Assembly (NCBI GenBank): GCA_947331495.1
Contig: CAMZOI010000001.1
Location: 1,984,001-2,048,000 of the forward strand
Length of the DNA: 64,000 nucleotides
Direction of reading: 5' to 3'
From: Erythrobacteraceae bacterium Alg239-R51
GTDB taxonomy: Bacteria; Pseudomonadota; Alphaproteobacteria; Sphingomonadales; Sphingomonadaceae
Shown piece after piece: positions 52,766 to 58,057 of the stretch (the stretch's first letter is position 1; every line of letters begins with the position of its first letter). The position numbers were made by a program, and so were the translations under genes. The notes under the pieces were generated by a model. It saw only the letters and a list, made by a program, of their open reading frames with translations. It was not told the origin of the DNA and searched no databases.

Positions 52766-53053
52766 TCAATAACTCTGCCGATTTCGCGCAAGCACGGAAA
52801 TCCGCTGCCAGTCGCCGGTAATCAACGCCTCCTTCTTAGCCCTGCTCCACCCCTTGATCTGTCGCTCTGCCGCCAGAGCTTCGTCGCGCGAAGGGAATGT
52901 CTCCGACCATACCAGTTCGACTGGCCTGCGCCGCGCCGTGTAACCACCGAGCGAACCTGCCTGATGATACGCCATCCGCTGATCGAGGTCGTCGGTGTGA
53001 CCGGCGTAGTACGAGCCATCGGAACAGCGCAGGAGATAGGCGTAGAAATCCAT
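52766..53053 (-). CDS. GIY-YIG nuclease-family protein
   Basis: A 95-aa single-domain protein. The GIY-YIG core is clear: YAYLLRCSDGSYYAGHTDDL (the GIY and YIG strands), DQRMAYHQAG with catalytic Arg, and the AAERQIKGWSRAKKEALITG helix with the family Glu. It belongs to the small UvrC-N-like group (UPF0213). Activity has been shown for few members. It is flanked by inverted repeat copies, so it could be a selfish or repeat-processing nuclease; that is inference. Confidence 0.85.
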   Translation of the reverse strand: MDFYAYLLRCSDGSYYAGHTDDLDQRMAYHQAGSLGGYTARRRPVELVWSETFPSRDEALAAERQIKGWSRAKKEALITGDWQRISVLARNRQSY

Positions 53054-55156: not shown

Positions 55157-56335
55157 TCAGCTCAACCGGTCGCGGAAGGCCGTGTAATCGAACTCCTTCA
55201 CCAGATCGAGCTGGTCGGTCTCGCTGTCCCACAACCAGATGCTTGGCAGCGGAACGCCGTTGAACGTGTTCGTCTTGACCATCGAATAATGCGCCTGGTC
55301 GAGAAAGGCGAAGCGCTTGCCGATCTCCGCCCCGCCGGGAATGCGGTAATCGCCGATCACGTCGCCCGCGAGACAGGACGGACCGCCAATGCGCACCGCC
55401 GGGGTCTCAGGATCGCCGCTTTCGCCGAGCATGGCCGGGCGATAGGGCGCCTCGATCACATCGGGCATGTGGCAGGTGGCCGATATGTCGGCGACGGCGA
55501 CGGGCACCTCGTTGAAACCGGTGTCGAGTATCGTGCCCACCAGAATGCCCGCATCGAGCGCCACCGCCTCGCCCGGCTCGAGATAGATTTCCGCCCCGGT
55601 GTCCTCTTTTGTATCGCGCAGGAATTCGATCAGTTCGTCGCGCTGGTAATCGGCGCGGGTGATGTGGTGCCCGCCGCCCATGTTGATCCATTTGAGCTGG
55701 CCGAACCACGGCTCGATCGCGTCGAACACCTTGTCCCAGGTCGCGTGCAGCGGCTCGAAGTCCTGTTCGCACAGATTGTGGAAATGGATGCCGTCGACCC
55801 CTGCCATGATCTCGGGCGTCAGCTGGTCGACCGGAAAGCCGAGCCGACTGCCGGGACTGGACGGGTCGTAGCGCGGCACTTCGCCCGTGGGGTGCATCGG
55901 ATTGATGCGCAGGCCGACGTCGAAATCCTGCCCCGCCGCACGCGCGCTTTCCAGGATCAGCGCCGCGCGCTCCATCTGGCCGGGCGAGTTGAAGATGACA
56001 TGGTCCGACAACCGGCAGACCTCGTCGAGTTCCTCCGGCTTGTAGGCGGCCGAGTAGGTCGCGATCTCGCCATCATAGAATTCGCTCGCCAGCCGGGCTT
56101 CCCACAGTCCCGAGGTGCAGACGCCGTCGAGATATTCGCCGATGATCGGCGCGACCGACCACATGGAGAATGCTTTCAGAGCGGCGAGCACCTTGATGTC
56201 GGCGGCGTCGCGAATCTCGGCGAGGACCTGCAGGTTCGCGCGCAACCTGGCCGCGTCGACCACGAAGGCAGGACTGTCGACGCGCTCAAGGTCGAATTGG
56301 GCGAAGGCGCCCGGGTCGCCGGCTCTGGTTTGCAT
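55157..56335 (-). CDS. nspC: Carboxynorspermidine/carboxyspermidine decarboxylase
   Basis: A 392-aa PLP enzyme that decarboxylates carboxyspermidine or carboxynorspermidine. Motifs: VDSPAFVVDAARLRANLQVL, the Lys site KVLAALKAFSMWSVAPIIGE, GHHITRADYQRDELIEFLRD and DQAHYSMVKTNTFNGVPLPS. Length is normal. It should work with the dehydrogenase upstream (56846-58057), but the GxxExxY cassette now separates them. Confidence 0.92.
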   Translation of the reverse strand: MQTRAGDPGAFAQFDLERVDSPAFVVDAARLRANLQVLAEIRDAADIKVLAALKAFSMWSVAPIIGEYLDGVCTSGLWEARLASEFYDGEIATYSAAYKPEELDEVCRLSDHVIFNSPGQMERAALILESARAAGQDFDVGLRINPMHPTGEVPRYDPSSPGSRLGFPVDQLTPEIMAGVDGIHFHNLCEQDFEPLHATWDKVFDAIEPWFGQLKWINMGGGHHITRADYQRDELIEFLRDTKEDTGAEIYLEPGEAVALDAGILVGTILDTGFNEVPVAVADISATCHMPDVIEAPYRPAMLGESGDPETPAVRIGGPSCLAGDVIGDYRIPGGAEIGKRFAFLDQAHYSMVKTNTFNGVPLPSIWLWDSETDQLDLVKEFDYTAFRDRLS

Positions 56336-56353: not shown

Positions 56354-56396
56354 TTGTTTCGCGCAAAGGCGCGGAGAAAGCGGAGATCGCAGAGGG
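56354..56396. repeat. Left inverted repeat of the GxxExxY cassette
   Basis: TTGTTTCGCGCAAAGGCGCG then GAGAAAGCGGAGATCGCAGA and GGG. It ends one base before the stop codon of the GxxExxY gene and matches the reverse complement of 56797-56842 along almost its whole length. Confidence 0.85.
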
Positions 56397-56789
56397 TCAC
56401 GTGCCGGGCCTGTAGTTATTGACCATTCTGCGGATACCTTCCTTCATCGTCTCGCCCGAAAAATTAAGAAGCAGCCCTACGGGCTGGTCCATCAAGCGCA
56501 GGTAAGTAAGCAGTTGCTTGGCGTGCGCCTTGCTGAGCATCTCGGTCGCCTTGATTTCGAGGACGACCCCATCCTCAATAAGTATATCGATCTTGAAAGC
56601 CGCTTCGAAGCGGTGTTCCTCGAACACAATCGGCACAGGAAATTGGCGGGCGACCTGGAGGCCGCGTGCCTCCAACCGGCCTGCAAGGACGGTCTCATAC
56701 ACCGACTCGAATAACCCCGGCCCAAGCTTCCGATGAATATCGATAGCCTCGCCAACGACTACATCGGTAAGCTCGTCGATGGTTCTCAA
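56397..56789 (-). CDS. GxxExxY protein (PD-(D/E)XK-like nuclease fold)
   Basis: A 130-aa protein of the GxxExxY family. The signature GPGLFESVYE is at about residues 22-31. A D-x(n)-E-x-K core follows (FKIDILIEDGVVLEIKATE), as in PD-(D/E)XK nucleases, then LLTYLRLMDQPVGLLLNFSG. The TTG at 56789 gives MRTIDELTDVVVGEAI; an upstream extension falls within the right repeat. Function is unknown; a DNA-end or repeat-related nuclease is plausible from fold and setting. Confidence 0.8.
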   Translation of the reverse strand: MRTIDELTDVVVGEAIDIHRKLGPGLFESVYETVLAGRLEARGLQVARQFPVPIVFEEHRFEAAFKIDILIEDGVVLEIKATEMLSKAHAKQLLTYLRLMDQPVGLLLNFSGETMKEGIRRMVNNYRPGT

Positions 56790-56796
56790 CCCAACC

Positions 56797-56842
56797 CTCT
56801 CTGCGCTCTTTTGCTTCCTCCGCGCCTCTGCGCGAAACCAAA
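56797..56842. repeat. Right inverted repeat of the GxxExxY cassette
   Basis: CTCTCTGCGCTCTTTTGCTT then CCTCCGCGCCTCTGCGCGAA and ACCAA. It overlaps the upstream side of the TTG start by 8 bases distance and matches the left repeat in inverse orientation. Confidence 0.85.
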
Positions 56843-56845
56843 ACT

Positions 56846-58057
56846 CTAAAAGCCCACGGGCCCGTCCAGCTCCTTCACATCCCACGGCAGGCCGTGGTCA
56901 TTAAGCATCTCCATGAACGGATCGGGGTCCATTTCCTCCATGTTGAAGACACCGTCGCCTGTCCATTTGCCGGTGACCATCATGGCGCTGCCGATCATTG
57001 CGGGCACGCCGGTGGTATAGGAAACCGCCTGGTTGCCGGTTTCCTCGTAAGCCGCCTCGTGGCTGCAGATATTGTTGATGTAGAACGTCTTCTCACCGCT
57101 ACCGTCGAGCGCCTCGCCGGTGGCGATGACGCCGATATTGGTGTTGCCCTTGGTCGTTTCGCCCAGGCTTTCCGGCTTCGGCAGTACGGCGGCAAGGAAT
57201 TGCAGCGGTATGATATCTTTCCCCTGATAGCGGACCGGGTCGATCCGGGTCATGCCGACATTCTGCAACACGGTCAGGTGCTTGATGTATTCATCGCCAA
57301 AGGTCATCCAGAACCGCGCGCGTTCCAGTTCGGGATTGAATTTCGCGAGGCTTTCCAGCTCCTCGTGATACATCATGTACATGTTCTTGGGCCCGACTTC
57401 CTCGAAATCGAATTCGACCTTCTTGCCCATCGCCGGACTCTCGACGAATTCGCCATTTTCCCAATGGCGTGCGGGTGCGGTGACTTCGCGGATATTGATT
57501 TCCGGGTTGAAATTGGTGGCGAAGGCCTGCCCATGATCGCCGCCATTGCAATCGAGAATGTCGAGCTGGCGGATGGTTTTCAGCTTGTGCTTCTTGAGCC
57601 ACATGGTGAACACGCTGGTCACGCCGGGGTCGAAGCCCGAACCGAGCAGGGCCATCAACCCTGCATCCTTGAACCGGTCCTGATAGGCCCATTGCCACTT
57701 ATATTCGAACTTCGCCTCGTCCTTGGGTTCGTAATTGGCGGTGTCCAGATAATCGACCCCCGCTTCGAGACAGGCGTCCATGATCGGCAGGTCCTGATAG
57801 GGTAGCGCAAGGTTGACGACCAGTTCCGGCCCGATCTTGCGGATCAGATTGACCATCGCCGGGACTTCCTCGGCATCGATCTCGTAGGTCGAGATGCCGA
57901 CGCCGGTGCGCTCCTTCACGCTGGCAGCGATGCTGTCACACTTGCTCTTCGTGCGGCTGGCCAGATGGATATCGGTGAAGATATCGGGGTTCATCGCCAT
58001 CTTGTGCACGCACACGCTGCTGACGCCGCCTGCGCCGATGACCAGGACTTTCGACAT
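56846..58057 (-). CDS. Carboxynorspermidine/carboxyspermidine synthase (saccharopine dehydrogenase family)
   Basis: A 403-aa dehydrogenase that joins a diamine with aspartate semialdehyde. Rossmann start KVLVIGAGGVSSVCVHKMAM, then HLASRTKSKCDSIAASVKER, YLDTANYEPKDEAKFEYKWQ and LLGSGFDPGVTSVFTMWLKK. This matches the carboxynorspermidine dehydrogenase group more than lysine-pathway enzymes. ATG at 58057 with GAGG upstream, MSKVLVIG. It is the first gene of the polyamine set. Confidence 0.88.
   Translation of the reverse strand: MSKVLVIGAGGVSSVCVHKMAMNPDIFTDIHLASRTKSKCDSIAASVKERTGVGISTYEIDAEEVPAMVNLIRKIGPELVVNLALPYQDLPIMDACLEAGVDYLDTANYEPKDEAKFEYKWQWAYQDRFKDAGLMALLGSGFDPGVTSVFTMWLKKHKLKTIRQLDILDCNGGDHGQAFATNFNPEINIREVTAPARHWENGEFVESPAMGKKVEFDFEEVGPKNMYMMYHEELESLAKFNPELERARFWMTFGDEYIKHLTVLQNVGMTRIDPVRYQGKDIIPLQFLAAVLPKPESLGETTKGNTNIGVIATGEALDGSGEKTFYINNICSHEAAYEETGNQAVSYTTGVPAMIGSAMMVTGKWTGDGVFNMEEMDPDPFMEMLNDHGLPWDVKELDGPVGF

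Follow-up and report, generated by a model that had tools for sequence, protein, structure and literature searches.

REPINs occur in their hundreds per genome. As set out in PMC3116915, the REPIN-RAYT system combines dispersed inverted pairs of short repeats, with pairs lying within or beside other pairs, and a nuclease-type gene that is flanked by the same type of repeat, such that repeat type and protein co-vary. MITEs and simple insertion sequences, the subject of the review PMC10969869, have inverted terminal repeats that are common to gene-bearing and gene-less forms. In invertible DNA elements, the DNA between inverted repeats is found both ways round. The Cas4/RecB-like nucleases are recognised by the residue order E, D, ExK and QxxxY.

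The locus analysed here shares features with each of these systems, and is best read, by analogy, as a REPIN/RAYT-like pair built around an unrelated nuclease. The protein is, however, a predicted PD-(D/E)XK nuclease of the Cas4/RecB-like type rather than a tyrosine (Y1, HUH) transposase, the arms are runs of octamers, the cores flip, and at most ~25 octamer matches are present per strand per genome. Unlike in MITEs and insertion sequences, there is no target duplication above chance and no known transposase within the unit and, unlike in MITEs, the interiors of the gene-less forms are not derived from the gene-bearing form; unlike invertible elements, the unit encodes neither a tyrosine nor a serine recombinase. 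A literature search covering few subscription journals returned no description of these repeats together with a GxxExxY gene, and the octamer sequences themselves matched solely papers that are, by title and abstract, on mammalian topics.

The GxxExxY gene and its flanking repeats

The following features lie in the window, by which we mean the whole stretch of 64,000 nucleotides that was analysed:

55157-56335, minus strand: carboxynorspermidine decarboxylase-like gene (nspC), the downstream neighbour (TIGR01047, 362 bits, below the cut-off of 409)
56356-56394, plus strand: 3' arm, an inverted copy of the 5' arm, 2 bases from the stop codon of the gene (local alignment)
56397-56789, minus strand: GxxExxY protein gene, 130 aa, TTG start (profile matches and alignment)
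56799-56838, minus strand: 5' arm, reading GTTTCGCGCAGAGGCGCGGAGGAAGC...GCGCAGAG in the direction of the gene (local alignment)
56846-58057, minus strand: carboxynorspermidine synthase-like dehydrogenase gene, the upstream neighbour (NF043000, 383 bits, below the cut-off of 800), with the start set by our choice at the ATG of MSKVL

The two arms, as placed by gapped local alignment, lie ~400 bases apart on either side of the GxxExxY gene and are 85% identical, with an alignment score of 48 compared with a maximum of 37 among 2000 dinucleotide shuffles of the flanks, which bears out the enclosure of the gene by inverted repeats that was proposed in an earlier note on this DNA. The repeats of 43 and 46 bp given there correspond to a real pair with limits drawn a few bases wider than ours, and the 18 and 3 bases reported at the edges of the unit follow from those limits; with the realigned arms, 20 bases separate the unit from the start of nspC and 7 bases separate the 5' arm from the stop codon of the dehydrogenase. 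Both neighbours match carboxynorspermidine enzymes, as expected for the polyamine operon named in the same note, but both matches score below the curated cut-offs and we therefore regard this assignment as probable rather than proven. Near the same operon, a 95-aa frame on the minus strand (52766-53053) may encode a small GIY-YIG-type protein, which it resembles in its motif. The genome contains a single GxxExxY gene, and the 16-base arm pattern is found without mismatch solely at the two arms of this locus. One further, gene-less pair (L004) is weaker, with arms of 22-23 bases and a score of 29 compared with a maximum of 20 among 500 shuffles.

A predicted Cas4/RecB-like nuclease

The window protein passes the curated cut-offs of both family profiles, namely TIGR04256 (E 1.5e-36, 125.3 bits, cut-off 35) and PF13366 (E 3.3e-37, 127.8 bits, cut-off 22), and conserves nuclease residues, in agreement with the PD-(D/E)XK-like core that the earlier note gave for the family. 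In the alignment, these residues are E27, D67, E77-x-K79 and Q91xxxY95 (numbered on the 129-aa translation without the start codon), of which E27, E77, K79 and Q91 are present in 79 of 79 sequences and D67 in 77 of 79. To the window protein, the protein alignment A1 adds 38 sequences from the 45 named-contig loci, omitting L057, L061, L064, L070, L078, L087 and L088. The fold predicted with 39 sequences has a pLDDT of 93, whereas the prediction without an alignment (pLDDT 39) was of no use. The nearest PDB folds identified by Foldseek, each with E > 0.001, are headed by 4ic1 (SSO0001), which we take to be Cas4, and include a Bax1 nuclease, splicing endonucleases and lambda exonuclease; a sequence search against solved structures gave no match. 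PADLOC Cas4 models also match weakly, the Cas4b model with E 1.7e-4 over residues 59-101 only.

The residue order of the protein is thus that of the Cas4/RecB-like family. In contrast to Cas4, the window protein contains no cysteine, so that the iron-sulphur cysteines are absent, and cysteine is found at none of the invariant or nearly invariant columns of A1. We read the GxxExxY protein as a compact Cas4/RecB-like PD-(D/E)XK nuclease, as predicted from profile and fold, without the iron-sulphur cysteines. GxxExxY proteins are present in several phyla, and in the literature searched no role was found described for them. GxxExxY is named in PMC8934634 and PMC12085832, the former of which reports a gene annotated as GxxExxY that adjoins a reverse transcriptase and was called cas4 by another program.

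Arm-bounded cassettes in other genomes

Loci were gathered from contigs of named genomes (45 loci which, as matches to the query, are biased to near relatives), from a genus sample with GxxExxY in 15 of 60 genomes and from an order sample with GxxExxY in 41 of 246 genomes, the latter yielding 53 matching places, of which 27 new loci were used. Rows L061, L062 and L065 were dropped as apparently representing the same genomes as other rows (two of them remain in the tree), and removal of duplicates reduced 90 rows to 86 distinct cassettes; the tree leaves out seven short rows.

A first scan, evaluated with dinucleotide shuffles, identified a matched arm pair in 47 of 56 loci. The second scan, in which the stop of the gene may fall inside the 3' arm and simple base shuffles are used as for the distant families, identified a pair scoring above all 200 base shuffles in 78 of the 86 distinct cassettes, leaving L203, L079, L082 and L086 as well as the partial or broken genes L165, L042, L087 and L088. 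The units span 436-625 bp, and the arms are runs of ~8-nt units that differ between loci but match within a locus. Pairs occur in Sphingomonadales and in cyanobacterial, Acidobacteriota, Verrucomicrobiota and Bacteroidota contigs; as for the two Spirochaetota loci, L076 failed the first scan and passed the second, whereas L086 failed both. Among distant families, 10 of the best 12 loci from the phylum sample have a pair (base shuffles), often with arms of other types such as ACCACGAAG or ACCGCAGAGTACGCAGAG.

Several cassettes depart from the common form. Those of distant families in L352-L363 have arms of 8- or 9-base units with other sequence, and the inverted arms around GxxExxY are far longer than usual in L074 (142 nt, Acidobacteriota) and L075 (~70 nt, Verrucomicrobiota). 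Broken copies of the gene, which are split, partial or contain an inner stop, are seen in G007, G076, G002 (C94) and G025 (C11), and in G007 the arms nonetheless form a perfect 24-base match. Carriage of the cassette by phages or plasmids was considered and rejected, with no match among 50,697 phage records and eight matches among 72,556 plasmid records, each with <60% identity. One scan of viral contigs with A1 confirmed no relative.

Cassettes recur at three operon junctions

The 86 cassettes are found predominantly at junctions between genes that we take, from their sequence, to be fabD, fabG and porB, and at the junction seen in the window: 34 lie between fabD and fabG (and a further one beside fabG alone), the dehydrogenase-nspC junction has 18, and 8 follow a porB-like gene. 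Together, 61 of 86 occupy these three junctions and all 61 are co-directional with the operon, while 25 matched no such marker; among the order-sample loci with an arm pair, 18 of 26 are also at these sites. Random insertion was rejected in view of this concentration. Vertical inheritance as the whole story was also rejected, since the tree divides the occupants of junction site A between two distant protein clades and requires no fewer than three label changes. At site C, where the upstream flanks are 92% alike, the cassettes are 96% (G020/G004) or 74% (G020/G077) identical.

In the first genus draw, nspC was located in 36 genomes, among which the interval between the dehydrogenase and nspC is unusually variable and ranges from 2 bp to 5.6 kb. 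Gene and arms are present or absent together at this junction: the gene is found in 6 of the 36 genomes, each time with arms, and the other 30 have neither the gene nor an octamer pair. At the G025 junction, one arm alone fits the octamer pattern, the pair having been seen in the first arm scan. In G025, G002 and G004, ~1 kb or more of extra sequence lies between the cassette and nspC.

The arms follow the protein

Arm similarity co-varies with protein identity across 64 order loci (Mantel r 0.595, reached in 0 of 5000 permutations). The relationship is retained when site is taken into account (partial Mantel r 0.526, 0 of 5000), whereas the effect of site given the protein is small (r 0.061, 328 of 5000). 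Indeed, L051, L053 and L060 reside at fabD-fabG and yet encode proteins of the nspC-site clade, together with arms of the kind found in that clade. Where a genome has two cassettes, as G025 and G004 do, it also has two types of arm. In 55 of 75 loci, the left arm is closer to the right arm of its own unit than to either arm belonging to the most closely related protein; in 17 it is less close, and in 3 the two are tied. The two arms of a unit thus evolve in concert, and the sequence comparisons support the reading that gene and repeats form one unit.

Gene-less repeat pairs

Inverted pairs with a score of at least 30 were present in 35 of 40 regions fetched from seven genomes that had been chosen for their octamer matches, such that dispersed inverted pairs of short repeats, as in the REPIN-RAYT system, are found here as well. 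Two of these pairs are cassettes and 33 are gene-less, compared with 12 intact GxxExxY genes among the matches listed for the same genomes. The gene-less pairs measure 87-267 nt, with cores of 35-127 nt in the 30 elements measured (80-95 nt in 19 of them). The cores are unrelated to the interior of the cassette and share with one another just short stretches, namely 47 core-to-core matches of 12-29 nt, of which 37 include a GCGGCGAAGCCGC-type mini-hairpin. Of 30 gene-less elements, 20 have a GC-rich mini-hairpin, compared with 27.5% of shuffles. Gene-less pairs lie one within another at L243, L245, L248, L252, L253 and L263, where an outer arm type can be told from an inner one. Seven of 30 elements sit inside a frame that is open 150 nt past both ends, and for this reason we do not describe all gene-less pairs as extragenic. 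The possibility that these pairs are decayed cassettes was rejected, as the 30 elements contain no significant GxxExxY remnant (best E 0.21, over 11 residues).

Within the order, a 15-base octamer pattern matches 58 of 246 genomes, comprising 34 of 41 with GxxExxY and 24 of 205 without (Fisher 2e-19), and 0 of 20000 within-genus permutations gave an association as high. These counts include the arms of the cassette itself, from which only high thresholds are safe; at a threshold of at least eight matches, the pattern is found within the own family in 12 of 40 genomes with GxxExxY and in 0 of 123 without. Three of the 24 octamer-positive order genomes without GxxExxY have 6-7 matches. Outside the own family, in the phylum sample of 398 genomes, at least one match is present in 10 of 58 genomes with GxxExxY and 34 of 321 without (p 0.18), and at least three matches in 4 of 58 and 1 of 321, respectively (p 0.002), counts that neither confirm nor deny the association, given that the pattern misses many arm types outside the order. 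A reversed control pattern gave 50 and 80 matches in G544 and G547, where another, similar repeat family may exist in that genus.

The gene-less arms also tend to resemble the cassette arms of their own genome (35 elements, seven genomes; 11 of 5040 permutations as high, the identity included), in a comparison that used one of several cassettes each for G196, G209 and G156. The match fails for the three elements of G025 (ranks 25, 41 and 52 of 66) and in part for G196, G209 and G089. A preponderance of gene-less repeats, which the earlier note had set against its own proposal, is therefore what the seven sampled genomes contain; yet these repeats are concentrated in genomes with GxxExxY and tend to its arm type, a pattern that favours a two-component system over unrelated repeats. 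Judged by these comparisons, the repeats belong to the unit of the gene, and the unit belongs to a wider population of repeats.

Inverted cores and the ends of the unit

Arm-bounded DNA was found in both orientations at one site in two cases. In G251 and G336, which are 95% identical over 5.7 kb, the 40-base core of a shared element is inverted (39 of 40 bases) between nearly identical flanks, whereas two other elements common to both genomes keep their orientation. At one junction in cyanobacteria, which is convergent, the orientation of the cassette is the same in L077, L078 and L081 and is reversed in L073 and L080. When ten G251 elements were compared with G336 (nine by searching flank pairs and one seen in L297), three were shared whole, including the flipped one, one retained its left arm with the rest deleted, and six gave no clean call, having been lost with their flank, replaced, diverged or recovered with one flank alone. 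Comparison of L230 (G251) with L319 (G336) shows a variant base that has changed places between the left and right arm, with the orientation of the core kept, as if by arm swapping or conversion.

The empty site and target duplication that the earlier note had proposed to look for in relatives did not emerge. A 5-nt match flanks 3 of 108 units, compared with 4.1 expected from mismatched pairs, with the same outcome at 3-9 nt, and no clean empty site was resolved, the gaps between G251 and G336 being partial deletions, replacements or poorly aligned flanks. An element of G025 is absent from syntenic G061, but the flanks differ by ~18%; in G003, G024, G026 and G009, junctions of 2-13 bp have neither gene nor arms, between flanks too diverged for exact ends to be placed. 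Some transposons make no target duplication. Of the minimal mobile cassette with the repeats as its ends that had been proposed, the part that stands is that gene and arms come and go together and that the arms follow the protein clade; the transposition it implies finds no support, in view of the lack of duplication above chance, the lack of a clean empty site and the concentration of 61 of 86 cassettes at three junctions.

A model for the element and its alternatives

We suggest, with a probability of roughly one half, that what is seen here is a two-component element in its gene-bearing form, in which a GxxExxY nuclease acts on inverted octamer arms. The first component would be the inverted arms of ~8-nt units (GCGCAGAG, GCGCAAAG and CACGAAGA types), which could pair as a hairpin or cruciform, and the second would be the GxxExxY protein, a predicted Cas4/RecB-like PD-(D/E)XK nuclease encoded between one such arm pair. 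The protein would most probably recognise its own arm type and cut at the paired arms, and cutting would let arm-bounded DNA be copied, moved or flipped, in which case the gene-less pairs would represent non-autonomous members served in trans. Gene-bearing units would persist in co-directional operon junctions (dehydrogenase-nspC, fabD-fabG and after porB), a setting in which their expression may come from read-through transcription. Mobility would be conferred by the GxxExxY protein, and the element may be selfish. A stronger form of this proposal, namely that these are a separate class of element in which a Cas4/RecB-like nuclease recognises self-pairing tandem-octamer arms and, both in cis and in trans, propagates and flips the DNA that they bound, with neither a transposase or recombinase of a known class nor target duplication, is put forward tentatively. 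The weak association across the phylum and the wider range of arm types pull in opposite directions and leave the odds of the two-component element unchanged.

The repeats could also be created, homogenised and flipped by host processes such as template switching and recombination at inverted repeats, with the GxxExxY protein a passenger or a housekeeping hairpin-trimming nuclease that makes the repeats tolerable. Both flipping and the homogenisation of arms can arise from replication at inverted repeats, without an enzyme of their own, and the octamer matches in 24 of 205 order genomes without GxxExxY, as well as gene-less cores unrelated to the interior of the cassette, are consistent with such an origin. 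However, host processes would not be expected to produce arms that follow the protein clade even across different sites, two arm types in two-cassette genomes such as G025 and G004, or gene-less arms that tend to match the cassette type of their own genome, and we consider this account rather unlikely. We give little weight to a free-standing homing nuclease that cuts the empty junction, with flanking homology copying the cassette in and the arms being secondary, for example ribosome-binding or protective: it leaves the matched arms in 78 of 86 cassettes, the co-variation of arms with clade and the gene-less pairs elsewhere unexplained, even though the small number of recurrent sites (three junctions account for 61 of 86 cassettes), the patchy distribution (15 of 60 genus genomes) and cassettes of very different identity between similar flanks would suit homing, as would the presence of I-Bth0305I, a homing endonuclease, in the list of weak fold matches (rank 22, E 0.11).

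A regulatory role, in which the gene is controlled by the arms as an operator or mRNA stem and the dispersed pairs are structured RNAs or make up a regulon, would accord with the position of the 5' arm just ahead of the start codon, with its GGAG-like stretches, and with the co-directionality of all 61 cassettes at the three sites. It appears improbable, given that the 30 junction intervals without the gene are also without octamer pairs, that no Rfam family matched the window stretch or the 20 loci submitted, and that a regulon would not normally be expected to have unique cores and nested pairs. Inverted repeats occur widely, and terminator-like stems directly precede some of the gene-less pairs; nevertheless, the distance between the arms, a score above 2000 shuffles and recurrence in 78 of 86 loci make chance or ordinary terminators a negligible explanation, and contradict the suggestion, allowed for in the earlier note, that the repeats are terminators.

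Implications

Under the two-component reading, gene and repeats resemble the two halves of a genomic parasite or DNA-shuffling system that has gone unrecognised. The tie to a specific repeat family provides the GxxExxY proteins with a concrete substrate hypothesis and, if true, would explain why GxxExxY genes are found inside operons between matched repeats. If true, these proteins would also represent a second class of enzyme, beside the RAYT transposases, by which short palindromic repeats are maintained in the genomes of bacteria.
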